Shown here piece after piece: positions 11,860 to 52,938 of a stretch of DNA of 64,000 nt (position 1 is its first letter; the number at the start of each line of letters is the position of its first letter). Origin of the DNA: Mesodorylaimus sp. YZB2_4 (Eukaryota > Nematoda > Enoplea > Dorylaimida > Dorylaimidae); the NCBI GenBank assembly GCA_030248295.1, contig JASANH010001517.1, positions 186,001 to 250,000 on the forward strand, in the 5' to 3' direction. The notes below the pieces were generated by a model, which worked only from the letters and a program-made list of their open reading frames with translations, was not told the DNA's origin and searched no databases. Position numbers and translations under genes: made by a program.

Positions 11860-12112
11860 TAAAGCATTTATGCTCAATTCGGGACGAAGGCTTATAGCTT
11901 TAAAACTTTTCTAAAACCTGTGAATGAATACTTTTCGGCTGCTAAAACGGAAAAACGATGTCATTAAATCTTTCCAGCACTTCAACAAAAGCACATGCAA
12001 GTCGGGTGAAAAGAAGAGGAATACATAGGTACATGCGTAGCTATCACCAAAGCACAACAAAAATCTGCATTCGCACAACCTACAAATCTGATGTTATTCG
12101 ATTGATACCAAA

Positions 12113-14306
12113 ATGTCGAACTTGCTGCCTCTTGTCAGTGAGTTGGAGAAAGAAGGCATCGAGAAGATCAGGGAAGTATTAGGGAACGAATTGCCACACG
12201 ATTTAGACACCGACTTCAATCTCCGAAGATGGGTTTGTGGCTGGAAAGGGGACATGAAGCAAATCGAACCCAGACTCCGCACATACATCCAAAACAGGAA
12301 GGCCCTCAAACTGGACGCTCCTGATCTGCTCGACCAACCAATTGATCCAATTATTCATCGAGGGTTCAAGCATTTATCGCTCAGCGTCCGCATAAATCCA
12401 TTGATCAATCCAATCGATAACACAGTTGTCGTTTATTATCGACTAGGAAATGTTGATTTGACCGGATTGACTAAAATATTTACACCGAGCGAGTATCTGT
12501 ACATGTCATTTCACATGTCTGAGGTCGTCCATCGACATATCATGCGTCAAGAAAAGATTAGTGGGAAACCCTCGGGTATTACTCTACTTTATGATTTGCA
12601 CGGAATTCACTACGGCGATTTCATCAATCCATCAGCAACGCACATGAAATTAGGCGCCTTGGCTATGGCTTTGCAGCAAGACTACTACTGCGATATGCTG
12701 CATCAGATCGTGTGCGTTCGTGTTCCCCCATTCATGAGCATAGTGTGGGAGATCATGAAAAGATTTCTGAATGAGGCTACTCAAAAGAAGTTCATTATAT
12801 TCACCGAGCACAAATTTCGGCAGCACATTTTCGATTACGTCCACCCATCGTGCGTGCCAGTGTCCTATGGAGGCGAGTACAGAGAAACTGACGACACCAC
12901 TGATCCGCGGTTGGCATATTTGCAGATCGATGCAGATATGGGCACTTCTATCCCACAACCAGTGGCAGAGTCGGAATATTTCAAATCGTCATGGATACCA
13001 GAGTGGACATGTGAGCACATCAAACCGAAGCGCACCCTGACTGTCGTCAGGTCTGTGAAAGATGCGGCAAAGACGATGCTCCGCTGGCAGTTCGAGGCCA
13101 ATTCCAATGTCGAATTTGCGGTTTATTATAAAAAAGAAGGTACACAAAAAGGGAAGGAAAGAATATTGCCCCTCCTTCCCGCCAGGCTTGACACGCCTTC
13201 CTCTGCCTTAGGAGAATTCCTCTGTAACCAGCATTCCTGGGCGGCCGGGTGATCGATTCTCTCCCTGGCTGGGAAACGTCAACCTCTCTGCTTGATGTTT
13301 CTAGGGCATGTAGAGTCGCGAGACTACCCTGGCTCCAGTTTGGAGTATTTGTTCCAGAGACTTCGGTCTTCACCGTCTCACGCCGCCTGGGCGCGCTGGT
13401 TACACCTCGGCTGACGATGAGTCACTCTCACTTCTGCTTCAATAGGCAAACAATTTTTGAAGGGAAAATTGAAATTACATATATTCCCTAGGACAGAGTA
13501 ACGGTGCGCTTGCGCTATCGAGAAATAAGCGTGCTAATGAGATACAGCGAGGAGCCTTTGTCGATCTGATTTGAGTGCCTTCAGACATTGAGTTTAGGAC
13601 ATAGAACGGGATATTGAGAGCGGAATGGGTAAACTTAATCCATTACTGCAAAATATTCGGGGATGGCCCATAATATACATACTAAAGTCAAAACTGTATT
13701 TTTTTCCATCCACTTACGATCAGCTTATAACTTTTGCTTATCCTACTTCATCATATATTTTCCAGATGGTGTAATGCAAAGAGGTTACACACTGACTTTT
13801 ATTGCTTTTGACTGATTGACCTTATGGTTTTCGCGCTAGCAGAGGTATCAGGCATCGAGGAGCCAATCGAGCATAATCAGGCGACCCAGTCTGTCGCTGC
13901 CATGCAGTACATAAGAAAGCATAAGCTGGCACTGCACCCTGTCATAAAGGGTATCATTACGGCCAGGAGTCTTGAGGGGCCTTGTGGCGTAATGGAAAAC
14001 GCGTCGGACTTCGGATCCGAAGATTGCAGGTTCGAGTCCTGCCAAGGTCGGCCACAAATTTTGTAGTTTCTACTGGGTCAGCACCTGTTTTCTACAGTAC
14101 ATATGACACCAGCAGTTGCATTTTCAGGCCAGCCACGGAAAATGGTGGCTCCGAAATTCACTCTGTGCACACCTCATTTCCCAGAAGAAAATCACCTGCG
14201 TTGTCGTGATCACGGCGTCGGTGACTACATTTTTGAATTTTCCAACCACAGCACTTCTTGGTTTAGTTTGAAATTATCTTATTGCATTATTGAAGCAGAA
14301 GGTTAA
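12113..14306 (+). CDS. SEC14-like CRAL-TRIO-GOLD protein, copy A (2 exons)
   Basis: Cytosolic lipid-transfer family protein of 401 residues. Exon 1 is 12113-13139 and exon 2 is 14128-14306, a phase-1 GT-AG intron of 988 bp. Residues about 10-65 are the CRAL-TRIO N-terminal helical region (DFNLRRWVCGWKGDM). About 75-250 form the CRAL-TRIO lipid-binding fold (ITLLYDLHGIHYGDF, then VCVRVPPFMSIVWEIMKRFL, then VPVSYGG). About 285-400 form a GOLD beta-sandwich split by the intron (LTVVRSVKDAAKT; second exon HFPEENHLRCRDHG...EFSNHSTSWFSLKLSY). Family members move or sense phospholipids or tocopherol-like ligands at Golgi and other membranes; the ligand here is not known. It is nearly identical to copy B from about codon 15 onward, while the first codons and 5' flank differ. 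The intron contains a tRNA-Arg gene and an inverted SINE. AATAAA at 14488-14493. Confidence 0.9.
13225..13410 (-). mobile_element. SINE middle module in intron of SEC14-like copy A
   Basis: Reverse complement of the 7422-7600/7951-8122 SINE module: GTAACCAGCGCGCCCAGGCGGC on one side and ATCACCCGGCCGCC on the other. The same insertion, in the same place, is in copy B, so it predates the A/B duplication. Confidence 0.7.
13978..14050 (+). tRNA. tRNA-Arg (anticodon TCG), copy A, intronic
   Basis: A complete 73-nt cloverleaf. Acceptor GGCCTTG pairs with CAAGGTC (one G-U), the D arm is GCG...CGC, and the anticodon stem TCGGA/TCCGA encloses loop CTTCGGA, so the anticodon is TCG reading CGA. The T arm is GCAGG-TTCGAGT-CCTGC and the discriminator is G. 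TTTT, a pol III terminator, follows at 14057. It lies in the same orientation inside the SEC14-like intron. Compared with copy B, position 5 and its partner 68 both differ (T-A here, G-C there), so pairing is kept. Confidence 0.93.
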
Positions 14307-14837
14307 GAGTAGGTTTATGTGACAGTCTCCGTACTGGTTGACTGTGAATGAAATAGAAGCGTGCTGGAGGAATCGGTGCTGGGAATCGGGCTCGGCCCAT
14401 CACCCCAAAGGACATGCCACAGATGTGTAACAGCTACTATCGATGCATCCAGTCCCTTGTTCGTCAATGAGGGGATAAAGCGATAGAATAAATTACTGAA
14501 CCGTCATCAAGTTATGAAGCAAACTCAAGAAAAGCAGAGAGGAGATGCGGGTAGAGGCTCCTGCAAGTTGCAAGGGAAGAAAACACAGTGGACAGGCAGC
14601 AGAGATCAGGCAAAGACCTATACACTGTCTACATTTGGTTCACAAGTAATTTCATGAATGTACTTATCGCGAAACCAACGCATCGAACGAATTACAGCCA
14701 TCATATCGACTTATTCATCAGTTCACCAACAATGTTTTCTGGGCGAAACGGACTGGGGTGTGAAACGGCGGGGGCGAAGTGTCCGAATGCCGTTTTCTGG
14801 ACCTATTCCAAAGCCAGGTTGCTGACCCGCCTTAAGT
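14307..14837. other. 3' flank of SEC14-like copy A
   Basis: Includes the AATAAA at 14488-14493. It is similar to the 3' flank of copy B at 27444-27660 (shared CGGGCTCGGCCCATCACCCC and GTAACAGCTACTATCGATGC). No gene. Confidence 0.6.
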
Positions 14838-23914: not shown

Positions 23915-25238
23915 TAGGTAAGGCGGAAGAAGACAGTGTTGCCTAGTACTTTTTGAGTTGCTTCTGTCCGGTCTGTAGAAAAGTGCTTGGGGGGGGGGGA
24001 GGCGAATTGGAACTGTTCAGGTAGGCTTTTGTGTTCTGCCACAGCAATATTTTTTGATAATTCCAAACCATTAGATCCTTAAGTGATCCAAGTTTTCGAA
24101 TCTTCTTACCTCCAAATTTTCGTATGCATTTTTCCTGACAGATATTGTCTAATGTTTGTTGAATTCTCCTTCGAACTTGCACATTGCCTTGCCCAGGGTT
24201 TCAGTGGGGCTAATGTTTAGTTGGAATACCACACAATCGAGAAATTCTTTAGTCGTCACTATGATCATGCTTTACCACATCAAAACACGGATATACGCAC
24301 CCGAGCGTGAAGGGACACATACTCACGCCTAACCTACCTGGGCGTGGGTGCTGGCGGCTTCATCATTGCATGTTGAACCTTCTGCATACTGAACACAAAC
24401 GTTACTTTCACCGCGACGGCCATGTAAGCAGGTATACTAGGCATCAACGGTGGGTATACTCGCACTACTCGTCACACGGCTTGTCCAGATATGCTTGCCA
24501 TACCAGTGCTTATTTGTATGCAGGCTAGATGTAAAGCCAAGGGCGGGGGGGCAGCCGAACTACATCGACGCAAGCTACGTATATTAAAAAGGCACCCATC
24601 AGCAGCTTCGGATGAATATCAAAAGGGAACATAAGACCTCGAGCTAGTGCACCACATCATGGATTCCCCGACGGTGAAACGCCCTAAGGGCAATGGTAGC
24701 ATAACCAGCAAAACTTTGCTCATGCACCTGCACTTTACAAGTTCTCTGTATCCGTACTCGAATTAGTACATGAGACTGTTCTCCACCAGTACATCCCAGC
24801 CCTGCACTTCTCCTAGTGTCTACAGCAGCCACCAGTGCGATACTCTTATCAGACATCGGTGCTACTAAATGCTCGTCTGGTGCACTTCTCAGTGAAATAA
24901 ATCTGTTATCGCATTAGGAGAACGCACAGAAGCTTTAAAATCATAGACCATAGAACAGTAAAGACAGCTAAGCACCTGATAAGCAATTGATTTTCGGATA
25001 TGATTCTGCATACAGAAAACAGTGCGGCTGTTCTTACACTTCAAGCCTCACACTTGACCGATTCTCCACCAAAGGTAGCATCCTGTTGCACTTGTAAAAT
25101 AATGCAGATAAGAAAATGATAAGGCACTAAACCTAGCAGGTTTGTCAAACTTTTAGCGAACGACTAAATCAAAACTAGTTCCTTCTCAAACCCCCATCCG
25201 TCGAGTAGTAAAATTTACAGCTTCGGCTCCCTGCAATA
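23915..25238. other. Intergenic, no gene seen
   Basis: Contains a G-run at 23990-23999. 24245-24340 resembles the short repeat at 57013-57095 (CCACATCA, GTGAAGGGACACAT). No supported gene. Confidence 0.45.
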
Positions 25239-27443
25239 ATGTCTAAATTTCTGCCCCCTATTAGTGAATCAGAGAAAGAAGGCATCGAGAAGATCAGGGA
25301 AATATTGGGGAACGAATTGCCTCACGATTTAGACACCGACTTCAATCTCCGAAGATGGGTTTGTGGCTGGAAAGGGGACATGAAGCAAATCGAACCCAGA
25401 CTCCGCACATACATCCAAAACAGGAAGGCCCTCAAACTGGACGCTCCTGATCTGCTCGACCAACCAATTGATCCAATTATTCATCGAGGGTTCAAGCATT
25501 TATCGCTCAGCGTCCGCATAAATCCATTGATCAATCCAATCGATAACACAGTTGTCGTTTATTATCGATTAGGAAATGTTGATTTGACCGGATTGACTAA
25601 AATATTTACACCGAGCGAGTATCTGTACATGTCATTTCACATGTCTGAGGTCGTCCATCGACATATCATGCGTCAAGAAAAGATTAGTGGGAAACCCTCG
25701 GGTATTACTCTACTTTATGATTTGCACGGAATTCACTACGGCGATTTCATCAATCCATCAGCACCGCACATGAAATTAGGCGCCTTGGCTATGGCTTTGC
25801 AGCAAGACTACTACTGCGATATGCTGCATCAGATCGTGTGCGTTCGTGTTCCCCCATTCATGAGCATAGTGTGGGAGATCATGAAAAGATTTCTGAATGA
25901 GGCCACTCAAAAGAAGTTCATTATGTTCACCGAGCACAAATTTCGGCAGCACATTTTCGATTACGTCCACCCATCGTGCGTGCCATTGTCCTATGGAGGC
26001 GAGTACAGAGAAACTGACGACACCACTGATCCACGGTTGGCATATTTGCAGATCGATGCAGATATGGGCACTTCTATCCCACAACCAGTGGCAGAGTCGG
26101 AATATTTCAAATCGTCATGGATACCAGAGTGGACATGTGAGCACATCAAACCGAAGCGCACCCTGACTGTCGTCAGGTCTGTGAAAGATGCGGCGAAGAC
26201 GGTGCTCCGTTGGCAGTTCGAGACCAATGCCAATGTCGACTTTACGGTTTATTATAAAAAAGAAGGTACCTACAAGGAAAATGAAGAATATTGGGAAATG
26301 AAGGATATTGCTTCTCCTTCCCGCCAGGCTTGACTCGCCTTTCTCTGCCTTACGAGAATTCCTCTGTAACCAGCATTCCTGGGCGGTCGGGAGATCGATA
26401 CTCTCCCTGGCTGGGAGACATCAACATCTCTGCTTGGTGTTTCTAGGGCATGTAGAGTCGCGAGACTAACCTGGCTCCAGTTGGGGGTATTTGTTGCAGA
26501 GACTTCGGTCTCGACTATCTCCCGCCGGCGCGCTGGTTACACCCCGGCTCACAATGAGTCACTCTCGCTTCTGCTTCAAAAGCCAAACAATTTGTGAGGG
26601 TGAAATTGAAATTACATATATTCCCTAGGACAGAGTAACGGTGCGCTTGCGCTATCGAGAGATAAGCGTGCTAATGAGATACAGCGAGGAGCCTTTGTCG
26701 ATCTGATTCGAGTGCTTTCAGACATTGAGTTTTGGACATAGAATGGGATATTGAGGGCGGAATGGGTGAACTTAATCCATTACTGCAAAATATTCGGGGA
26801 TGGCTAATAATATACATACTAAAGTCAAAACTGTATTTTTTTCCATCCACTTACGATTAGCTTATAACTTTTGCTTATCCTACTTCATCATATATTTTCC
26901 AGATGGTGTAATGCAAAGAGGTTACATACTGACTTTTATTGCTTTTGACTGATTGACCTTATGGTTTTCGCGCTAGCAGAGGTATCAGGCATCGAGGAGC
27001 CAATCGAGCATAATCAGGCGACCCGTTCTGTCGCTACCATGCAGTACATAAGAAAGCATAAGCTGGTACTGCACCCTGTCATGAACGATATCATTACGGC
27101 CTATAAGCGTGAGGGGCCGTGTGGCGTAATGGAAAACGCGTCGGACTTCGGATCCGAAGATTGCAGGTTCGAGTCCTGCCACGGTCAGCCACCCATTTTG
27201 TAGTTTCTACTGGGTCAGCACCTGTTTTTTTTTGTACATATGACATCAGCTGTTGCATTTTCAGGTCATTCACGGAAAATGGTGGTTCCGAAATTCACTC
27301 TGTGCACACCTCATTTCCCAGAAGAAAATCACCTGCGTTGTCGTGATTACGGCGATGGTGACTACACTTTTGAATTTTCCAACCGCAGCACTTCTTGGTT
27401 TAGTTTGAAATTATCTTATTGCATTATTGAAACAGAAGGTTAA
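25239..27443 (+). CDS. SEC14-like CRAL-TRIO-GOLD protein, copy B (2 exons)
   Basis: A 401-residue lipid-transfer-type protein. Exon 1 is 25239-26265 and exon 2 is 27265-27443; exon lengths (1027 and 179 bp) are identical to copies A and C. The CRAL-TRIO N region, CRAL-TRIO domain (VCVRVPPFMSIVWEIMKRFL) and GOLD domain are all intact. The first 14 codons (MSKFLPPISESEKEG) differ from copy A (MSNLLPLVSELEKEG), but the following kilobase, the intron, the nested tRNA and part of the 3' flank are nearly identical. This indicates a recent duplication or a gene-conversion tract starting near codon 15. AATAAA at 27625-27630. Family function: cytosolic lipid or lipid-signal carrier with a GOLD protein-interaction module; specific role unknown. 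Confidence 0.9.
26366..26545 (-). mobile_element. SINE middle module in intron of SEC14-like copy B
   Basis: Same inverted SINE module as in copy A (13225-13410), with GTAACCAGCGCGCCGGCGGG on the minus strand and a small deletion relative to A. Confidence 0.7.
27115..27187 (+). tRNA. tRNA-Arg (anticodon TCG), copy B, intronic
   Basis: A 73-nt cloverleaf in the intron of copy B, same orientation as the host. Acceptor GGCCGTG/CACGGTC, anticodon loop CTTCGGA (TCG), T arm GCAGG-TTCGAGT-CCTGC, discriminator A. TTTT follows at 27196. The acceptor differs from copy A by a paired change (G5-C68 instead of T5-A68) and has full pairing apart from G2-U71. Both copies look functional. Confidence 0.93.
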
Positions 27444-28567
27444 GAGTAGGCAGGTGTGACAATCTCCGAGACTGGCTGATTGTGAATGAAATAGAAGCGT
27501 GTTTTGGAATTGATGCTGGAAATCGGGCTCGGCCCATCACCCCACAGGACATGCCACAGATGTGTAACAGCTACTATCGATGCATCTCATCACTTGTTTT
27601 CCAATGAGGGGTGATAGATCGAATAATAAATCAATGAAGCGATAGAGTAGGTTTCTAAAGCATCATCAAGTTAAGGAAATAAATAGTTTAATTGGCTGAC
27701 ACGGAAAATATCTCATCAAAAAGTGATATTGTGCTTTATAAATGGTTAATACAACAACGTAAACAGCGAGAGGCGAAGAAAAATTATAAATAAAATACTG
27801 CGAATTTTATTCAATTTTTTTAAACAAAGTCTTGTTCACCTGGTTGTTAGCCTTACGCACTTGCTGTCTGCTCGAAGCGCCTGGCGCCATCGGATAGTTT
27901 GCGTAAGCAATAAAAACTAGTGTGGGTGTAGTTTTCAGTGTGTGCTTTTGAGATTGAGAAGAACATTGAGAACTCAATATTTCGTGCTGTGATTGTAGTG
28001 ACAAGCGTGGTGCATGAGGCACACCCTAGTTATCGAGTTGAAAAGCTGACCACTGCTGGCCACGTGAATGAGGGCAGCCAAAACTATGAACCAGAGTAAA
28101 AGCTACCGAAGGGAGCAACACAAGCCATTTAAAAAACAGCGGGCTTCTCACTGCACCGAGACACTACTATGTAAAAGCGGAGCCAGATTGAGAGATTTGT
28201 GCCGAATATGACCGAAATAAATTTAGCTCAAAGTTAGGCAAAACAGTTCCACCTTCCAAAAGATTATCAGAAGGTGGTCGGCATATGAACGTATAAACAT
28301 ATGCCAGCGCGGCTACGTGTCCATAAACGGCGCGAACTGGGATACCTGGCTAACAATGGAAGACCAGACCAGTCCTAGCACGTCCCCGTTCATCATTCGT
28401 TAGTCAGTTGTGACAACAGAAGATAAAGCGGCCATACCACCAATGTGCCAGGCAACCGCTTAGCACTTTCAGATAAAACTAGTTCTCAATTTTCATCAGC
28501 TGGCGGCTGACATTCTTTATAGAACATTGCTATACATTTTATGACATTGTACAGTTAGCCGTTAAGA
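27444..28567. other. 3' flank of copy B and intergenic sequence before copy C
   Basis: 27444-27660 is homologous to the 3' flank of copy A. The rest (27660-28567) is AT-rich and shows no gene; the minus frame 27807-28022 has no motif. Confidence 0.5.
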
Positions 28568-37602: not shown

Positions 37603-37673
37603 GGACCTTTGGGTGAGGCTGGAGACAACATCGGTCGGTACTCGAATGGTTGCTAGCAGAACTTTAAGCCAAG

Positions 37674-38640
37674 ATGAAAGTCATCATCGCCTTAATCCCG
37701 ATTCTTGCCACCTGTTTGGCAAGTCCAGTCCCCGTGCAGGATAATGCCAAGTGTGGTGTTCCAGCCGTCAAGCCAGACACAACCAAGATTGTCGGCGGCA
37801 AGGATGCCATTCCTTACAGCTGGCCCTGGCAAGCAGCTTTGTTCAAGAAGCCAATTTTCGGTAGTGCGTATCAGTTCTGCGGTGGAAGTATCATCTCGCC
37901 GCAATGGGTCATGACGGCGGGACATTGCTTCTATGGTGATGACAAGAACCCGCAGAAGTATTCGGTCAAATTGGGTGTGTTCAACAAAGCGAAAGCTGAT
38001 GAACCAGGAGAGCTGGTCTTGGGTGTCAGCGAAATCCATGTCAATCCTAATTACGACCCCAGCAAGATCGTATATGACATAACATTGCTGAAGGTAAAAA
38101 TATTTTTGCCTAGCGGGTTTGACGAGCTCGTAATTGATGATCATTTTTAGTTGGAACAAGCTGTGAATTTCACTGATCATATTTCTCCCGTATGCCTGCC
38201 AGGCCAAGGCGAAGATTTGCCGGGTGCAGGAAGCGATACATACGTCACTGGCTGGGGAGCGACGTCACGTAAGAATACTTGTTTTTCAAAGACGACCCCC
38301 ATATACTAAATCGTTTCCTTTTTCAGAGGGTGGCCAGGATAGTCCCACTCTGAAACAAGTGTCCGTGCCAGTTGTATCCAATGACAAGTGCCAGGCAGCT
38401 TATCCCGGACAAATCTACAATGACACCCAATTCTGCGCTGGTTACGACAAGGGTGGCAAGGACTCGTGCCAGGGTGACAGTGGTGGACCAGTCGTTTATC
38501 AAGCGTCTTCTAAAAAGCCGTGGAAACAACTGGGCATCGTTTCTTGGGGATACGGATGCGCCCAGGCCAAGTATTACGGAGTGTATAGCAAAGTGTCAGC
38601 TTATATCGATTTCATCCATCAGTTTGTAAACGATTTATAG
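37674..38640 (+). CDS. Trypsin-like serine protease zymogen (3 exons)
   Basis: Secreted digestive-type S1 protease of 283 residues. Exons 37674-38093, 38151-38268 and 38327-38640 are joined by 57- and 58-bp GT-AG introns. Signal peptide about 1-16, propeptide with a Cys that can link it to the catalytic chain, and activation site TK|IVGG before Ile39. The catalytic triad is His84 (MTAGHCF), Asp135 (YDITLLK) and Ser231 (GDSGGP). Asp225, six residues before the Ser, is the S1 pocket residue of trypsin. With SWGYGC and YGVYSKV this predicts cleavage after Lys/Arg. Length and cysteine pattern are normal. It stands alone here; a sequence like its 3' flank without the gene is found at 53637-54180. 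Confidence 0.96.
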
Positions 38641-43305: not shown

Positions 43306-43473
43306 TGTAGTATGTTCACCCGCCACGCGCCAAGCGACTTTACTAGACGGCGACCCGGGACAAGACTACTTATCGTTAGTTAGTCCATATCGGCACACAC
43401 GACGAGACCAGACACAAAAAGTTGAAGGGCATGATTAGAACCAGTTATAAGTAAACATCACGTTATCACTACA
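43306..43473 (-). repeat. 3' LTR of the outer element (168 bp)
   Basis: TGTAGTA...CACTACA on the plus strand, with TG/CA termini. Nearly identical to 52777-52938; it has an extra 6 bp (ATCGTT region) and three substitutions. Confidence 0.9.
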
Positions 43474-43551
43474 TCACACCCTCACCAAATTCTCACACGT
43501 CCCCGTGTGACGCAAAAAAAAAGAAACGAGGGAGGAAAAAAAACAAACAAA

Positions 43552-44572
43552 TCACCATAAGTCACGCTTGGACCGATGACGTCGATCATGTTGGGCACGA
43601 GGAAGTGTCTGAGTCGAATAGGGCGAACGTGGTCTTGATGAGCGGAAACGATCGTAACGAGGTGGAGGGCTGGGCGTGGGTGTGGACTGGCGGAGGGCTC
43701 GAGGTCTGGATCGGGACCGTGACCGTGATCGCGTTCGGGACGAGGCACGTAGCTGTGCGCTACGAGCGGGCTGTACGGTATCTCTGGAAGGACCCAATCG
43801 AAGGAAGGACCCAAGGAGGACCCAATCGAAGGAAGACTGACCCTTCCCGTCGCCTACCAGGCGTAGTCACGGCAGGAGACGTCGCTCGCCCGTCGGGCGT
43901 GTCATCGAGGACGACATCCACTGTACCCAGCGACGAGCAATCTGAACGGACTTCGACGTCCTCGAGCAACTGTGGTGATCCATCCGTTGGTGCCTGAGAA
44001 TGGTCACGCGCCTGATCCGACAGGGATTGATGTTCACGTTTCCGCACCCGACTCCGGACTAAACGTGGAATGGCTTCACGTCGGACCATGCCCTGGAATG
44101 CCAAGAATCGTTGACACAGCATATTAAAGCGAGAAACAGACAAATTCGCCTCTCAAAATCGACAAGCTGCCCACACGTAATAAGAGTGCTCGAAGGCTCG
44201 GAGTTGTCCTAGGGAGAGCCTCGAGTTATCAAAATCCAGCAGAGTGCGTATGGCAGGGGACCTGTAGAACTGATGACACTCCCGCAATAAAGCCTTCTCC
44301 CGCTGAGAAACCCTATCACTCTCCAAAGGCTGTTCCCAAAATTCTGGAAACCTCGGGTCCAAATCACTCTCGGCTGGGCCCACCAAGGGCGGTATAGAAT
44401 GAGCTGACTGAGGCGCCGTCACTGGCACTCCCGACGGCTCCCTGTGATGAGTACAGTCGACCAACGAAGCTCGGCCCGGACGACCCGAACCAAAACTCGA
44501 TTCGCCTCCCAGGCATCGTCCAGGAGACCCGAATCGATGCCATCGTTCCTGGCACCGCCACCGGAAACTCAT
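43552..44572 (-). pseudogene. 3' ORF of outer element with Arg/Ser-rich C-terminus
   Basis: Unrecognised ORF downstream of the integrase. It starts at ATG 44572-44570, which follows a splice-acceptor-like TTTTGTTTTAG, so a spliced subgenomic RNA is conceivable. About 140 helical codons (SQREKALLRECHQFYRSPAI) run to a single in-frame TGA at 44155-44153. The same frame then continues (LSVSRFNMLCQRFLAFQG). A frame change near 43800, at a 28-bp partial tandem duplication, leads into a tail rich in RSRSRSRSRPR and Pro. It could be a displaced gag/nucleocapsid, because no gag precedes the protease, or an accessory RNA-binding protein. Confidence 0.5.
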
Positions 44573-44740
44573 CACTAAAACAAAACGCAAAAACAAGGAG
44601 TTCGTTAAATGATTAGGGTGGAAACAGGGCCCTCACACCCAAACATCGTAATTCCAACTAGAAAGAAAAAACGTCAGCAGTGGATAGACCCGGTGTAAAA
44701 CAAATGCACACAAAACACACAGCAAGGTCATGCGACTGGT

Positions 44741-46620
44741 TCAGTCGCTAGCATCGATGTCCGCTTGACGTGCTTGCGCTGCGGCGAACTCCTCCAACTG
44801 AGCCATGGCTGTGCGAATCGCCTTTTTCTGAGAAGCATGCATCGCCTTCGTCTCGAAATATGGCTCGATGTCTTTCAGGTGCACAAAAGCCTGGCGATCA
44901 CGATCATTTATAAAATAAACTAATATCCAAGGACCCTTTGTACGCGGTTTTAGACATTTGGCTTCCGACTATGGCAGTACACGAGCAGGCCACCAAGGAA
45001 TATATTTGAGTTTAGCCCACACCAAAGAGCCAGGTACTAATTGCGAAGTCTGCCCACCGGGCGTGATATTCGTGCCGTGACTCTTCGATTCCTTGATGTT
45101 CACCCACTGATCGTTCTCAGATTCTGGTTCGTCCTCCGGACGTCCTGACACTGACCCCCGATATAGTTGCAAGTGATTCACGTGAATGAGCTTGTCAGCG
45201 CCAGCACTAAGCAGCGGACGAATGCATGCGGTCACTTGCGATGGCATTGCGACAATACGATATGGACCCGAAAAACGATCACATAGTTTGGCAGACAAAC
45301 GTCGTGGTGCTGCATTCCTCCTAATCATGACTAATGAGCCGACTTTAAAAGGAATTTCATGGGCTGCCCTGTTATACTGCTTAGCCTGCTGTTCCTGAGC
45401 TGCGGAAATCGATTTGCGTACTTCGGTGTAAGCATCGGCTAAACGTTTTTTCAACTGCACTACATAGTCGTGGGCTAAGTATTGCTGCGAGTCATCTGAA
45501 CCAAAGGCGCGATCGAAGGGGAACGGCAACTCTCGGCCATAGACCAGTGAGGCTGGTGAGTAACCCGTGGATGAGTGCAAACTCGAGCGAAAGGCAAATA
45601 AGGCAAACGGGCTGAATAAGTCCCAGTCTTCCTGATGAGCACTTGCGTAGACTGCAATACTGTCGATCAAAACCTTGTTATACCGTTCGACTTGTCCATC
45701 GCACTGTGGGTGATATGCTGTAGTGGATAACTTGCGGATGTCCAGAAAGCGACAAATACCACGAAACAGATCGGATGTGAATTGAGACCCTAAATCAGAC
45801 AATACTGTACGCGGGCATCCAAAGCGACAAATAATATGCTCCACGAAAATCTGTGCGATGGTTTCAGTTCTGCAATCAGGCATTGCGACTGCTTCCAGCC
45901 ACTTTGTAAATGCATCGATAAGCACTAAGATGTACTGATTGCCGGCGCGTGTAGTTGTCATTGGTCCAACGATATCCAAACTGATACGTTCGAATGGATT
46001 ACGCACTGGGATCGAAACCAAAGGTGCTTTCCCCCACTTATGCGGCGACTTACGACGAGCACAAATCAAATAAGTACGGCAGTAGTTGTGCACATCCCTA
46101 CGCATCGATGGCCAGTAGACACGGTCCATAAGACGAGCCAAGGTGCGTTCTTCTCCCATGTGACCCGCCAGAGGATCGTTGTGAAATGCTGCCAAGACTT
46201 CCTGCTTCAGACTAGATGGTAAGGCAAGAACTGAGCTTGTGATACCACGAGATTTGCGACGGCGCGGAAAGCAAAAGCAAAAACGAAGAACTGAGCCCTT
46301 ATCTCCCTGCAGAAAGTATGACTCTGCCAACTTCGCCAGTTCCTCTCTCTCCCCCTCAACGCAGGTACCAGCCTCCACAAAATCGATAATACGCTTCAAA
46401 AACGGATCTTCTTCTTGCTCTCTGCGCAGCACTGTATCATCAAAAATGCCAATTCGTCCTCCGCCACGCACTCTTCCCCGTCATCTCCGACAGATATACC
46501 CGAATCTATAGGTGCCAGCGTTGCGTGGGTGATACCCGAGATCATGCGAACCATGCTCGAAGAAGGCTCTGCAGTAGGAAGGCGGGACAATGCGTTCGCG
46601 TGACCCTGAGCTGTACCGCC
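44741..46620 (-). pseudogene. Outer element: RNase H end, integrase and C-terminal PWWP-like domain
   Basis: Reads from the RNase H tail (GHANALSRLP near 46600), through a frameshift about 46440, into integrase. The zinc-binding part is H-N-D-P-L-A-G-H then C...C; the first Cys of the CxxC appears replaced by Tyr (CRTYLICARRK). Core DDE: LDIVGP, LSDLGSQF and GQVERYNK with 35 residues between the last Asp and Glu. GPY/F module: FSGPYRIV. After the GPY/F comes GSLVWAKLKYIPWWPARVLP, the hallmark of a PWWP domain. Then an in-frame TAG (44971-44969), then WILVYFINDRDRQAFVHL and IEPYFE in the same frame, ending at TGA 44743-44741. PWWP domains bind methylated H3K36 nucleosomes, so this module could target integration. 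Confidence 0.8.
44815..45030 (-). other. PWWP-like domain at integrase C-terminus (outer element)
   Basis: SLVWAKLKYIPWWPARVLP carries the signature W-A-K-[LM]-x-x-x-P-W-W-P-A-x-V. After the TAG the remaining beta strands match the domain's second half (VYF...AFVHLKDIEPY). About 70 residues, a normal PWWP length. Confidence 0.72.
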
Positions 46621-46785
46621 GAAGTCATTGGTTGCCCATATTCGGTCACGTTTGGGGCATGAGGCTCAGTGTGCAGTGGCTGGGTCGCAGTTGAGCGTAG
46701 GTCTGACTGGAATCGACTCGTTACAAGTCAGCGACTCGATCGACGACACCACTGCGCGTCACTACAAGGAGCTCTTGGATCGCTA

Positions 46786-46808
46786 TGTCACGCTTAAGTT
46801 TGTATCTC
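46786..46808 (+). repeat. 5' LTR remnant of the inner element
   Basis: TGTCACGCTTAAGTTTGTAT and three more bases match the first 23 bp of the 3' LTR with one mismatch; similarity then stops abruptly. Confidence 0.8.
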
Positions 46809-46944
46809 ACATTCCAGCATTATCTTATGCTGCTCCAATTGCCTCTCTTCCTGCCGTTTTCGTTCCTCAGCCTCTCTCTGCCTGTCTTCTAGTTGCCTTT
46901 CTTCCTGGCGTTTCCGCTCCTCAGCTTCGCGGCGCCTGTCCTTA
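46809..46944 (-). pseudogene. Inverted coiled-coil (gag-like) fragment inside the inner element
   Basis: On the minus strand this reads as a charged coiled coil with an imperfect repeat (REAEERKRQEERQLEDRQ, then again REAEERKRQEERQLEQ). Such Glu/Arg-rich coils are common near the gag of Ty3/gypsy elements. It lies opposite to pol and directly between the LTR stub and pol, so the 5' part of the element was inverted and mostly deleted. Confidence 0.55.
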
Positions 46945-49900
46945 AACTGAAGGGAGACGGCCTCGTGCCAGTGATGGTAGCTAATACAGCTACGGACGAT
47001 AAGGTATTGCATAAAAATACGCGAGTCGGCCAGTTCACGGTCATCGATAAGGGTGACCAAGTGGTGGCAGCTTGCGGTTCTGCCGAGGGTAAACCGGTGT
47101 CCATTATGGACCCAATCGCGAAGATCGATTGGAGGGAGTCAGAGTTGACTGAGGATCAACGGAAACGCGTTGTTAGCGTATTACGTCAATACGAAGATGC
47201 TTTTGCTGAGCATGAAGGTGATATCGGAAAGACGACGTTGCTACAACACAAAATCGTGTTGACAGGGGCGCCTCCGCCCAAGATGAGAGCTCGGAGAATA
47301 CCAGAGGCAGTGAAGCCAGAGGTTGAGCGGCAATTGAAGGTGATGCAAACGCACGGTTGGATCAAACCGTCGTGCAGCCCAGTATCGGCTCCGCTAGTTA
47401 TAGTGCCAAAGAAGGATGGAGGCACTAGGATTTGTATTGACTTCCGGGCATTGAATGCTGCAACAAAGAAGGACTTGTACCCCATGCCACGCGTAGACGA
47501 AGCGTTGGATGCATTGGGAGGTGCGAAATGGTTCACAAGTTTGGACCTTCAGAGTGGGTACTGGCAGGTACCACTGAGCCCAGAGTCACAAGAATGGACG
47601 GCATTTTCAGCGCCAGGTGGACAATTCGAGTTCACAGTAATGCCATTTGGGTTAGTGAATGCGGGAGCGACATGTGAACGACTACTGGAGATGGTCCTAT
47701 CGGGCCTGCAGTGGGATCACTGTTTGGTTTATATCGATGATATACTGATCTACAGTAAAACGTTTGACGATCACTTGCGGCATATCGGCAATAAGTTTGA
47801 TCGGTTAGTGAAAGCGGGCTTGAAGGTTAAGCCATCAAAATGTCACTTCGCGAGGGCTGAAGTACCTTTCCTGGGTCATGTGGTCTCGAAGGCTGGGATC
47901 AACATGGACGAGAAGAAGGTTGCAGCAGTGCGGAAGTTTCCAGGCCCACAGAACATCAAGGATGTGTGGCGGTTCCTGGGTATGTGCAACTTCTATCGGG
48001 ATTTCATCCCTCGATTTGCCATGATAGCGGCTCCGTTGTACAAACTGCTATGCAAAGATCAGAGCTTCGTCTGGGATACCCAGTGCGAGGACGCGTTTAT
48101 GGCGTTAAAGGAGATGTTGGTGTCCAAAGCGATCTTGCGGTTCCCTGATTTCAAAAGGCAGTTCATACTGCAGACAGATGCGTCGAATGTCGGCATCGGG
48201 GCAGTGCTGTATCAACAGCATGGGAACGACAAATGGGACGTAGCATACGCGTCAAGGACGCTAACGAAAGCTGAAAAGAATTATTCAGCGCTGGAGAAGG
48301 AATGCTTAGCGGTTGTTGAATATGTTAAGCACTTTCGACCATACCTTTATGGGGCAAAGTTCCTGTTGAGGACAGACCATCAACCGCTGAAGTGGCTGAT
48401 GGCACACAAGGAACCCACAGGTCGGATTGCACGGTGGGTATACCAGTTGTCGGAATACACGTTTGATGTAGAGCATGTACCGGGGAAGACCAATGTTGTG
48501 GCAGATGCACTTTCTCGAAGCCCGATGTGCATGGTTTGCCCAGTGGCTGTAGAGACAGTCGGACAAAAAGCAGTGGAGTTGTCGGACCAGACACTTAAGG
48601 ACGCACAGAGGGCAGATCAGTTCTGTCGGGCGCTAATTGACTATTTGGAACAAAGAATGTTGCCCAAAGATCCGCGGGATGCGAGGCGGCTAAAAAAGCT
48701 TGCGCAGAGCTTTAGTCTTTCGGAAATGGGCGTATACATTTTCCATTGGGGCAAGAACGGAGAAAAGAGGATTGGATACAGATGGTAGTTCCATTATCCT
48801 TGCAGCGCTTGGTGTTTGACGCACTGCATGGTGATGCCATGGCAGGTCATTTGGGTTTCACGAAGACCTTTGTCAAGCTGAGGCAACGGTTCCTTTGGCC
48901 AGGCATGTACAAGGACACTTTTCGCTGATGTCAAAGTTGTTTGCCATGTGCGAAGAACAAATCGTATGGTCAGACGGGTCGGGCACCCTTGAAACCACTG
49001 TGTGTGGAGAATCCGTTCGAGTTGGTGGCGATCGATGCCACGGTTCCATTCCCTACAGATAGGGATGGCAGTAAATACGTCGTAATCGTGAGCGACTACT
49101 TGACGAAGTACATCGAGGCGTTCGCAGTGCCAGACATCAAGGCAGCGACGGTAGCCCAGATCTTGGTAGACAAGATCATATGTCGGTGGGGAGCGCCACG
49201 ACGATTGCTGTCGGACAGAGGGGCTAATTTTACCTCAGCGTTGGTGCAGGGCGTGTGCGAGGCATTGCGCATCAAACGATCCCTGACGGTAGCGTACAGA
49301 CCTCAGACTGATGGTCAGGTGGAGAGAGTGAATCGCGTGTTTCGCGATATGCTGAGAATCTACGTAGACCAAGATCACCAGGACAATTGGAGTGGTTTTG
49401 TTCCGTTTGCCCGATTCGCGTACAATACGTCAGTCCATGAAGCGACGGGTGAGACTCCGTTCTTTCTGATGCATGGTTTTGATGCACGGTTGGTGATCGA
49501 TACGGGTATCTCGAGTTCGGCTAACAAATTTGGCAGCGCGATTGAATATCGCGATAACGTGGTGCAGCAGCTCGAGCGAGCTCGGAGGTTAGCTTATGAG
49601 AGCATAGAACGAGTGCAAGAACAGCGTAAGGAACGTTGGGATAAGAATACGAAACTGGAGAAGGAGTTTCAGGCTGGTGATATGGTGATGTATAAGCGAA
49701 TGCAAACACCGGCAGGCTTATCATCGAAGCTGTTGGGCTCCTGGACTGGACCCTATCGTGTCACGCAAGTGATATCGGCTCACAACTTGATTATCTGCCC
49801 GCAAGGAGGATTAGTTGGCGAGGAGAAGCGTGTTCACGTAGAACAGGTGAAGCGGTATGTGCCCGAGGTGGATAGGCCACGCAAACCAAGACTGCTGAAG

Positions 49901-50212
49901 GTCGGTGATGCAGTGTGAACCAAACTGAAGTACCACCCATATTTGCCAGCACGTATAGTGGATGAAACGGAATTCCCGGATAAGAGGCCTATAAAACCAA
50001 ATTGGGTTCGTGTTCACTTTTTCGGCGAGAAGAAGTACGGACTAGTCGAGCGCGATAACATCTTCGACTACAGGCAGTATAAGGAGGTGTTAGCCTCCAA
50101 GGCGGTAGGTTTGCCTCGTGCGATGCGAGACGCGGAGAGGTACTTGGAGGAGGAGAAGGACACGCGCAGTCGTGTGGCTTTGGTGAAGGAGAGACGGAAG
50201 TGGGTGCAATAG
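46945..50212 (+). pseudogene. Inner element pol: RT, RNase H, integrase, PWWP-like domain
   Basis: Open from 46945 to 48788 with the protease-RT linker (VPVMVANTATDDKVLHKNT), RT (APLVIVPKKDGGTRICIDFR; active site YIDD near 47730) and RNase H (FILQTDASNVGIGAVL to VADALSRSP). A frameshift near 48750-48788 leads to the integrase zinc region HGDAMAGHLG; a TGA at 48926-48928 sits just before CQSCLPC. Core: VAIDATVPF, LSDRGANF (Asp at 49214) and GQVERVNR (Glu at 49322), D-x35-E. GPY/F: WTGPYRV. A TGA at 49916-49918 replaces the Trp expected in GDAVxTKLKYHPYLPARIV, and the frame runs on through VRVHFFGEKKYGLVERDNIF to TAG 50210-50212. Three lesions make it non-coding now. Confidence 0.9.
49898..50089 (+). 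other. PWWP-like domain at integrase C-terminus (inner element)
   Basis: VGDAV, stop (in place of Trp), TKLKYHPYLPARIV, then WVRVHFFGEKKYGLVERDN and YRQYKEV. The strand order, P-Y-L-P-A in place of P-W-W-P-A, and the VxFFG motif with a following aromatic are the PWWP pattern. It follows the GPY/F module, as in the outer element, although the two integrases are clearly different families. Confidence 0.7.
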
Positions 50213-50356
50213 GAATCGGAGACGTCGGTCAAACTCAATCAACAGCGTACAATACGGTCGTACGATGTCAATGAAGATGGGCGACTTACGACGTCAATGA
50301 TCATGATTTTTGCGTTTCGATATTTTGTGTTTCGTGTAAACTGAGGGGGAGGTGAA

Positions 50357-50555
50357 TGTCACGGTTAAGTTTGTATCTCCCGCGTGGATATCATGTAGTG
50401 TAGTGTGCGTTATCGTAAAGCTTGCTCGCCAGGGCTACGGCTAGAGCAGGCGAACTGTGTAGAGTACGGAGGACCGTAATATAATTCTCGTCTAGTGCGG
50501 TTGGTCTCGAGATTACTCTTCTCCACACGCGGTCACGTCGGACAGCAACGTGACA
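50357..50555 (+). repeat. 3' LTR of the inner element (199 bp)
   Basis: TGTCACGGTTAAG ... CAACGTGACA, with a purine-rich tract (GAGGGGGAGGTGAA) directly before it and the GCTA duplication directly after it. Confidence 0.88.
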
Positions 50556-50855
50556 GCTATAAGGAACCACTGAAATCTATTCCTCCGCCAGCTAAGCAAG
50601 ATCCGTCGCGCGTGGAGAGATTGCGTTCAAAGTTTAACATTTCTACAGCATGTCTAACAGATGAAGAACAAGCAGCCTTCGTGGACTTGATGTGTCAAAA
50701 CGCAGACATCTTTGGTGAGTCGAATAAGGATTTGGGGTGTATGCCAGGCGTCCATCATTACATTGACACAGGAGATGCTGCACCAGTCAAACGACAGCCA
50801 TACGGGGTTCCGCAGGCCAAACAAGAGGAACTACGTCGTCAAGTTGAAGAAGGCC

Positions 50856-51193
50856 TGTAACGACGCTGTCTTACGCTACCGGGTCGACCAGGTTCCTATC
50901 CCCCGGCTACGGTATGAGGACCGCAACTAGGTCGGAGACTTACCAAGCTTCCAATGGTTCATCGCTGATGGCCTCGACCAATCTCACCCAACTTTACTCA
51001 AACTCTCGACACAGCCGCAAGTGCCCCGAATCAAAAACGAGAGACTGAGAGCGCGCAAGCTCTCCTCAGCTCTGCAGCTCTTCTTACCAGCCAATACTCA
51101 CGCGCCCACACGCAGACACACCTGAGACACAGACAATGAAGTGGCGCCACATTCAAACCCCCAAGACAACGGACATCTCACAACTTCATCACA
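50856..51193 (+). mobile_element. Probable solo LTR (338 bp) with GGCC target duplication
   Basis: TGTAACGACGCTG ... CTTCATCACA interrupts the RT frame between GAAGAAGGCC and GGCCTCAAGAATGG. GGCC flanks both sides, and removing the insert plus one GGCC restores the frame. TG/CA ends, non-coding content and a 4-bp duplication fit a solo LTR. No second copy occurs in this window. It is not a spliceosomal intron: joining at its GT...AG would shift the frame. Confidence 0.72.
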
Positions 51194-51407
51194 GGCCTCA
51201 AGAATGGTGTCTTGACTCACTCTTGCAGTCCGTGGGCGTCCCCGACTCTTCTAGTCAAGAAAGCTGATGGCTCCTGGCGTTTCTGCGTGGATTATCGCTT
51301 GTTGAACGCCGTCACCAAGAAGGACGTTTTCCCGCTACCTCACATTGAGACTCTTTTGAACAAGTTGCAAGGCAGCGTCATTTTCAGTGTTTGTGACATG
51401 CAACTAA

Positions 51408-52446
51408 CGCCCTCATCCCTCACCGAGGGTTCTCCTTCGATATACTGAAACTGTTCAAGCGTGCCACACGGTATGTGATCGGAGAGTGCTAACTCATTCT
51501 CTCCAAAATTGACCAAGCACACTGGAAAACGCTGAGCCTCATTCAATTTGACCAAACTCGCGGGGGCAGCTACATTAAACTGCTTTTGAAAATCGGATGA
51601 GGGTATGAAAACCATCAAATCCTTATTCGGACTCTCCGCCTGCGCCCAGAACAATTTCTGACTTCGGGGTGGAACGACCATGGACTCAGATGGACCACGG
51701 ATCAGACGAACATTGGCCGTAGCCCGACAAAGCTCTCGTTGGAAAAACGAAACCATAGTACCGCAAAACGGATCACGCATCAGACGAATCGACTTGGCGT
51801 AATACGATATATCGGCTCCAAACACGTGAAGAAAATCTGATCCAAGAATGCAACCCCGATACGTGCCACACATAACATGCATGGGCCATTCCACTGTGAT
51901 GCCTCTCACTGTGACTCCGATCAAGGCGATTCCCAACAAAGGCACGTCGTCTCCACTAGCTGCCTTACAACTCCAAATGCCCTTGTACAATGTGATCGGT
52001 GTGTTTCCCTGGCGCAATGAATCAATATGAATCAAAGATATCTCAGCTCCAGAATCAACCAAGGCTACAACCTCAACGCCATTCACTAAGATCGACAATT
52101 CTGGACCAGAAACCAAACGAGCCAATGATCCTGGTGACTCCGCGTATGTTACATTATAGGTGTGCGATATCATCTTACCCCGTGCAGGGGATGGAACATC
52201 AGGGAGCTGCTTCAACTGAATGCGAAAATACGCGCGAATACGACAGATAAGCTCATCGCGTCCCACGCGTGACTGATCCAACAGATTGTCCATCGAAATG
52301 TCTTTATGCAGACAGAAATTCACCAGGTACCGCAAAGGCAGGTCACTCAGATCCCGAAGAGCATACTTCCGTGCCAAGTCAACACCATCAGGACCAATAA
52401 CTACATTCGACTGGTCCGCCACCTCCGGCGGTGCATCGGTCGCCAT
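51408..52446 (-). pseudogene. Outer element protease ORF
   Basis: Start ATG 52446-52444, about 345 codons. The aspartic protease core is SILVNGVEVVALVDSGAEIS (active-site DSGA) with flap-side YRGCILGSDFLHVFGAD. The first 110 residues (LRDLSDLPLRYLVNFC) do not resemble a full capsid, so gag is short or absent. The frame ends at the inversion junction near 51405 instead of continuing into RT. Confidence 0.82.
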
Positions 52447-52761
52447 GCTGGCGTGAGTATCACAAATATTCGAGGATGTTGGAGATACGCCAAAAACAAG
52501 CTGCCAATAGTCCAGTGCGTGACGGTAAGGTGACGCTCCCCAAAACGCTACGCCTCAATCGCCGGCCTACACTCAATTAAGAAAACTTGTGTTACCTGGA
52601 AGGCGTCAGACACTGTTCCGATATCGAACGATTGAGATTGATGACTTGGCCGCACGAACGTCGAATCATAGAACCGATCTGCTTGTTCGATCAATTGATC
52701 GGCCCCCGGCCGTCTGATGGTTTCACCTTAAAAGGAAAGAGAAAAAAAAGGCAGCAAACGT

Positions 52762-52775
52762 GGGCCGACGCACCA
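52762..52775 (-). other. Candidate primer-binding site of the outer element
   Basis: On the minus strand, one base after the 5' LTR, TGGTGCGTCGGCCC begins with the TGG that pairs with a tRNA CCA end. The primer tRNA was not identified. Confidence 0.5.
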
Positions 52776-52776
52776 G

Positions 52777-52938
52777 TGTAGTACGTTCACCCGCCACGCG
52801 CCAAGCGACTTTACTAGACGGCGACCCGGGACAAGACTACTTAGTTAGTCCACATCGGCACACACGACGAGACCAGACACAAAAGGTTGAAGGGCATGAT
52901 TAGAACCAGTTATAAGTAAACATCACGTTATCACTACA
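52777..52938 (-). repeat. 5' LTR of the outer element (162 bp)
   Basis: TGTAGTACG ... CACTACA on the plus strand; partner of 43306-43473. Confidence 0.9.

Follow-up and report, generated by a model that had tools for sequence, protein, structure and literature searches.

A PWWP domain follows the integrase in many Ty3/gypsy lineages of a nematode genome

The stretch of DNA analyzed here (the window) comprises 64,000 nucleotides, positions 186001-250000 of contig C151 in a 145.1 Mb nematode assembly of 1067 contigs. It contains two Ty3/gypsy retrotransposon copies, one nested in the other, and sequence comparison securely identifies the domain behind the integrase in both of them as a PWWP domain. 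The same PWWP-tipped integrase architecture recurs in open frames across many lineages of elements in this genome. The two window copies themselves are decayed and rearranged, and each PWWP is broken by one stop codon. Their features, in window coordinates, are as follows.

43306..52938, minus strand: rearranged family A copy of Ty3/gypsy, the outer element (matched by blastn with pieces L014/L006 of that family)
52777..52938, minus strand: 5' terminal repeat of the outer element (direct repeats)
51343..52554, minus strand: outer Gag/protease frame (PF13975 gag-asp_proteas, E 2.8e-6, at the 28.2-bit cut-off)
46046..46219, minus strand: outer H2C2 zinc-binding motif (PF17921, E 2e-20)
45707..46000, minus strand: outer integrase catalytic core (PF00665, E 3e-12)
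45218..45334, minus strand: outer GPY/F (SH3-like) region (PF24626 E 0.0061, under the cut-off; alignment)
44792..45031, minus strand: outer PWWP domain with a TAG codon inside (44969-44971), 57.4 bits, E 2.3e-13 (genome search)
43306..43473, minus strand: 3' terminal repeat of the outer element, TG...CA (direct repeats)
46942..50556, plus strand: inner Ty3/gypsy element, family B, 5'-truncated, nested in the outer element (blastn against B copies L036 and L042)
47403..47882, plus strand: inner reverse transcriptase (PF00078, E 3.4e-35)
48147..48458, plus strand: inner RNase H (PF17917, E 7e-40)
49010..49303, plus strand: inner integrase catalytic core (PF00665, E 2.4e-12)
49676..49780, plus strand: inner GPY/F region (PF24626 at E 0.22 only; GPY conserved in the alignment)
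49904..50143, plus strand: inner PWWP domain with a TGA codon inside (49916-49918), 40.5 bits, E 4.6e-8 (genome search)

A first-pass annotation of this DNA had read a PWWP domain at the integrase C-terminus of both elements, and the stretches that it quoted are indeed present in both. We tested the reading with Pfam PF00855, whose curated cut-off is 25.6 bits. The inner integrase frame (48929-49915, plus strand) runs up to its TGA and is followed by a PWWP piece (49919-50209) that scores 36.8 bits (E 5.7e-9) on its own. The outer integrase frame (44972-46480, minus strand) holds the zinc motif, the DDE core and the first 19 PWWP residues, and its C-terminal end reads GSLVWAKLKYIPWWPARVLP before the TAG. 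Beyond that codon the same frame holds the remaining PWWP, and the outer pol terminates at 44741. Scored apart, the two halves of the outer domain reach 20.7 and 22.6 bits, each below the cut-off; only across the stop, in a genome search that reads through stops, does the domain pass, at 57.4 bits. Two genome copies (57.1 and 58.2 bits) and members of six lineages also exceed the cut-off. Sequence matches in the PDB point the same way: the family A PWWP matched MSH6 (2.8e-8) and LEDGF (4.1e-8), the family C PWWP matched NSD2 (5.6e-5), and the inner window piece matched HDGF-related protein 3 (0.006). The Pfam scores and these matches bear out the identification.

The order of protease, reverse transcriptase (RT), RNase H and integrase, together with the H2C2, DDE and GPY/F motifs found by Pfam and alignment, places the elements in Ty3/gypsy (Metaviridae). 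At L013, a single frame runs from RT through PWWP. The GPY motif is invariant in ten family sequences, in which integrase and GPY/F align throughout and PWWP sits at the tail. A chromodomain was ruled out, as PF00385 was absent from Pfam scans of the window and of the family proteins examined; genome-wide there were 70 chromodomain matches, none in a frame longer than 859 residues. It was also ruled out that the PWWP is merely the SH3-like GPY/F module, which the alignment places separately and upstream.

The first-pass annotation had proposed to look for intact relatives of the window elements; in the host genome, six lineages have frames that are open across integrase and PWWP. H2C2, the integrase core (rve) and PWWP lie in one open frame, all above their Pfam cut-offs, in families A (L006, L004), B (L070), C (L034), D (L051), E (L052, L069), F (L055) and G (L057). 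Since C and E group together in trees, these families make up six deep lineages: A, B, C/E, D, F and G. A seventh lineage, H, is weaker. Its member L065 scored 19.1 bits for rve and 24.0 bits for PWWP, both below the cut-offs, and L068 scored 33.5 bits for PWWP. Three other gypsy relatives retrieved with a family A query (L076, L077 and L078, on C657, C5 and C53) have integrase and GPY/F followed by a disordered tail; Pfam was run on L076 and L077. Because these three end without PWWP, PWWP-bearing and PWWP-less gypsy families coexist in this host.

Genome-wide, the search across stops yielded at least 146 PF00855 matches, both window sites included. We scored 150 of 173 candidates, so that all PWWP counts are lower bounds. 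With three integrase+PWWP queries, from families A, B and C, 108 of the 146 matches proved to have an integrase immediately before the PWWP and in the same orientation, and eight further matches, some of them remnants, have integrase in the loci that we fetched (L033, L038, L043, L056, L057, L063, L064 and L065). Integrase sequence therefore precedes PWWP in 116 matches overall. From the other 30 we inspected four: L020 lies at the end of a contig, L061 lacks integrase, L068 has a GPY/F-like region only, and L066 on C64 has no integrase within 1.4 kb upstream of its PWWP and is probably a host gene. Among the 40 large fetched loci (L011-L050), 39 have integrase similarity beside PWWP. Stop-free frames of at least 1000 residues hold 35 of the 146 matches, and 23 have an internal stop within the PWWP. 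With 108 genome matches directly behind an integrase, the link between the two domains is more than chance. PWWP matches less than 10 kb apart occur on C85, C267, C58, C325, C1033, C460 and C151, which suggests frequent nesting or clustering, as in the window.

The earlier suggestion that the fusion is a lineage trait rather than one accident stands in so far as many families carry it, and our trees are compatible with one origin or with several. The RT tree unites families A, C, D, E, F and G in a starred clade (support 99/97) and sets B apart with entries P0001 and P0007 (92/87, not starred); a single PWWP clade was not rejected (p-AU 0.27). When the PWWP-less host lineages were left out, a branch of the integrase tree divided the 16 PWWP rows from all others, with support (63/89) that is not strong. 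With three PWWP-less host lineages included and row H1 left out, the PWWP label took 3 changes on the integrase tree, and one clade was again not rejected (p-AU 0.178). From these sequences it is possible that PWWP was gained once and then lost in places, or that it was gained two or three times.

Both window copies are rearranged. By blastn, pieces of the outer element lie at 44100-46617 (minus strand), 46617-46786 (plus), 50556-50856 (plus), 51193-51402 (plus) and 51402-52170 (minus). Its interior (window 46617-51402) is inverted around the nested element, perhaps through self-integration that preceded insertion. The outer element has long terminal repeats of about 165 bp each, which align in ungapped blocks of 98 nucleotides (98%) and 67 nucleotides (99%), or at 94.6% over 168 positions with a gap; none were seen for the truncated inner element. 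We looked for a target-site duplication at the outer element and saw none. In the inner element, RT and RNase H share one frame (46893-48785, plus strand), and an adjoining piece (46812-46942) is inverted. A-family copies have a further frame of 330 residues after pol (L006:1935-2927), with a Ser/Arg-rich end and without a Pfam match; its counterpart in the window, at 43482-44632 (minus strand), is broken. Its position is reminiscent of the extra gene of Cer1 in C. elegans.

As to function, we think it probable, by analogy with LEDGF, that the PWWP tail acts as a self-carried tether. After reverse transcription, the PWWP on the integrase tail would dock the integration complex onto nucleosomes, chiefly by touching the DNA of the nucleosome and, in certain families, by means of a methyl-lysine pocket as well. 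The element's own integrase would thereby carry a tether of the kind that lentiviruses take from the host in the form of LEDGF. Both nucleosome binding by the PWWP tip and any influence on the place of insertion are steps that we infer. For human immunodeficiency virus type 1 (HIV-1), swapping the chromatin-binding part of LEDGF redirects integration (PMC4176367, PMC8149907).

Several of our observations weigh against a tether of this kind, and the state of the methyl-lysine cage is one of them. In the LEDGF PWWP, the cage consists of M15, Y18, W21 and F44; the change Y18A reduced methyl specificity, and W21A and F44A abolished binding, perhaps through misfolding (PMC3663649). We transferred these positions through the family A match to LEDGF and the family alignment. 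At the Y18/W21/F44 positions, family A has I, V or L, then W and F, and family B has H or Q, then L or W, then F (L in one copy). The remaining groups read F-W-F (C), H-W-F (D), Y-W-L (E1), F-W-F (E2), Q-W-F (F), F-A-F (G), G-W-Y (H1) and K-W-F (H2). Among the eight groups, only C and E2, one of two E members, keep all three aromatics, so the cage is incomplete in most families. It is incomplete in both window families as well, since the outer one has I-W-F and the inner one H-L-F, and neither shows a complete LEDGF-type aromatic cage. Families A and B frequently carry Y or F directly before position 18, and this residue might substitute for Y18. Judged by these residues, groups C and E2 may plausibly read methylated lysine 36 of histone H3 (H3K36me); in the families to which the two window copies belong, such reading is doubtful. 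For methyl-lysine reading, we would give C and E2 about an even chance and regard it as unlikely in A and B.

The distribution of copies is a second point on that side. Contigs numbered above 300 make up 19% of the assembly, as estimated by interpolation between some 60 contigs of known length. In a crude test, they contained 55 of the 146 places with PWWP and 11 of the 28 relatives that lack it (Mann-Whitney p 0.96). The 28 PWWP-less places were picked by hand; three were read to their end, the others gave no PWWP match, and C807 is doubtful. Copies with and without PWWP are thus both over-represented on small, repeat-rich contigs. This pattern lends no support to gene-body targeting, and selection and assembly can yield the same picture.

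Divergence within the elements gives mixed signals. PWWP identity is lower than integrase identity in E1/E2 (37% versus 78%), C/E2 (55% versus 83%) and B1/B2 (45% versus 80%), and this faster divergence could reflect loose constraint on the domain, which also counts against a tether. We compared 13 pairs for the ratio of nonsynonymous to synonymous divergence (dN/dS) of PWWP, and two were informative: a B pair, L036/L046 (dS 0.74, dN/dS 0.06), and an F pair, L055/L056 (dS 1.70, dN/dS 0.12). These few informative pairs show signs of purifying selection. Two A pairs gave ratios of 0.10 and 0.09, but at dS above 2, and five pairs had undefined dS. The last four were near-identical, and two of these gave ratios of 0.53 and 0.58. 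The F pair is also unusual. Nucleotide identity between L055 and L056, counted per 100 bases, is 89-100% through the integrase to base 1200, then 83%, and 62-77% across the PWWP, staying low past the stop codon. It is likely that the 3' cassette of this pair was exchanged between related elements by recombination.

Structure prediction is the last of the unfavorable points, as the broken inner piece of 97 residues gave a poor model (predicted local distance difference test score, pLDDT, 59.5). A Foldseek search with this model returned PWWP or PWWP-bearing entries in 49 of the best 50 rows, the exception being RBB1NT; the best E was 0.065 and none was at or below 0.001.

We weighed other explanations for the domain against the same data. 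One of some standing, though on balance not a likely one, is that the PWWP is a DNA or nucleosome clamp only, which would aid target capture without reading any mark. The LEDGF PWWP contacts and binds DNA by a basic surface (PMC3663649, PMC4176367), and such a role is in keeping with net charges of +2 to +7 in A, D, G and B, with B2 (0) and B3 (+1) as exceptions. The domains of C and E1, however, are net negative (-2 to -3), those of F are at 0 and +2, and C and E2 retain the cage, which speaks for a function of the pocket in these two. That all families read trimethylated lysine 36 (H3K36me3) and send insertions into transcribed gene bodies, as LEDGF does for HIV, is unlikely. The fold family and the closest PDB relatives, LEDGF and NSD2 among them, agree with it, as do the W21 and F44 positions kept in most families and the F-W-F of C and E2. 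Against it, A, B, D, F and H carry I, V, L, H, Q, G or K in place of Y18, the W21 position is L in the inner window family and A in G, and the excess on small contigs is no different from that of PWWP-less relatives. The first-pass annotation had proposed guidance to H3K36-methylated transcribed chromatin, and the incomplete cages of both window families and the shared contig distribution tell against that proposal.

A role other than target choice, such as anchoring integrase to the chromatin of the host or engaging a host partner, seems improbable to us. The position of PWWP at the extreme end of pol is compatible with any such role, but we saw no positive sign of one, and reader tips at this place are treated as targeting devices in PMC12477816. 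An artefact, with host PWWP exons beside dead integrases or contamination, has next to no probability: L066 is a probable host gene and 26 of the 146 matches are known from the search alone, but six lineages refute that reading with frames that stay open across both integrase and PWWP, the spacing is conserved, and nearly all large fetched loci have integrase.

Docking of the integration complex on nucleosomes by the integrase-borne PWWP is the account that we prefer. A bolder extension, which we offer tentatively and consider less likely to be right than wrong, is that this nematode hosts a Ty3/gypsy radiation with a built-in LEDGF-type PWWP tether, diversified pockets and exchanged 3' cassettes, whose families would read different chromatin states. 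If so, a single integrase scaffold would carry, within one genome, a whole series of evolved reader variants. Among natural examples of mobile elements that select chromatin with a domain of their own, integrases tipped with readers are the cleanest. PWWP is the domain by which LEDGF guides HIV-1 to active genes, and a PWWP-fused integrase would therefore be a natural counterpart of engineered LEDGF tether swaps. Since this one genome combines varied cage residues with PWWP-less relatives, it offers an internal comparison from which to learn whether the place of insertion depends on the pocket.

Elsewhere in the window, a duplication of 2.4 kb (12109-14500 and 25234-27638, 93.6% alike) carries a tRNA-Arg(TCG) gene in each copy, and two exons of a trypsin-like protease gene lie at 37668-38640. 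The host is a nematode and probably a dorylaimid: for a COI frame on C73, translated with the mitochondrial code, the nearest named proteins are those of Xiphinema rivesi (81%), Paralongidorus litoralis and Longidorus vineacola (both 80%), and unnamed environmental proteins reach 84%. The assembly as a whole has 15 COX1 matches (C73, C273, C741, C47 and others), most of them fragmentary and probably nuclear copies of mitochondrial DNA or products of misassembly. The COI of C73 lies inside a long contig, and the same two causes are possible for it.

We searched for relatives beyond this genome. Among the best 120 of 431 matches to an integrase+PWWP protein query, PF00855 was found in none, and our own PWWP profile matched none at E 10. 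A GPY/F-to-PWWP query with 1228 candidates also gave none at E 10; this search was insensitive, because ordinary host PWWP proteins also failed to pass. IMG/VR yielded no relatives. The protein searches may exclude records from this genome or near ones and are thus no proof of absence elsewhere. In the available portions of open PMC full texts, a scope outside which subscription papers, preprints and repeat libraries fall, we found no description of PWWP on a retrotransposon integrase, in agreement with the remark in the first-pass annotation that such a group was not known to it.

Chromodomain tips are the defining feature of chromoviruses. Like the families described here, chromoviruses have a Ty3/gypsy pol with GPY/F and then a domain of the chromatin-reader type at the integrase C-terminus (P0029, P0053); they differ in that this domain is a chromodomain, where ours is a PWWP. 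Compared with P0029 and P0053, the PWWP does occupy the chromodomain position, as the first-pass annotation had said. In the RT tree, which was built without named reference elements, the three chromodomain rows and one further row fall on a starred branch of their own (99/84), apart from the PWWP families. Chromodomain and Tudor integrase tips have also been published from Ectocarpus Gypsy lineages outside chromoviruses (PMC12477816). The Tudor tip is called the first in any transposable element in that paper, which also names Chronos, a reader-tipped Gypsy element of oomycetes. These stramenopile elements, which are not chromoviruses, gained their reader domains independently (PMC12477816) and, like ours, carry them at the end of the integrase; they differ in their readers (Tudor or chromodomain) and hosts. 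Ginger1 transposases, relatives of Gypsy integrases, can bear a PHD domain (PMC2836005). Two metagenomic gypsy pol fragments add further reader types behind the integrase core, zf-CW in P0012 (E 1.1e-13) and PHD in P0013 (E 5.1e-8); like our families they have a reader-type domain there, but the domains are others, and the two integrases pair (100/99) away from the PWWP lineages. A parallel in function would be LEDGF/p75 (PSIP1) with lentiviral integrase, in which a PWWP is the chromatin-facing part of the integrase tether (PMC4176367, PMC8149907). LEDGF/p75, however, is a host protein that joins integrase through a separate domain, whereas here the PWWP lies within the integrase polypeptide itself.
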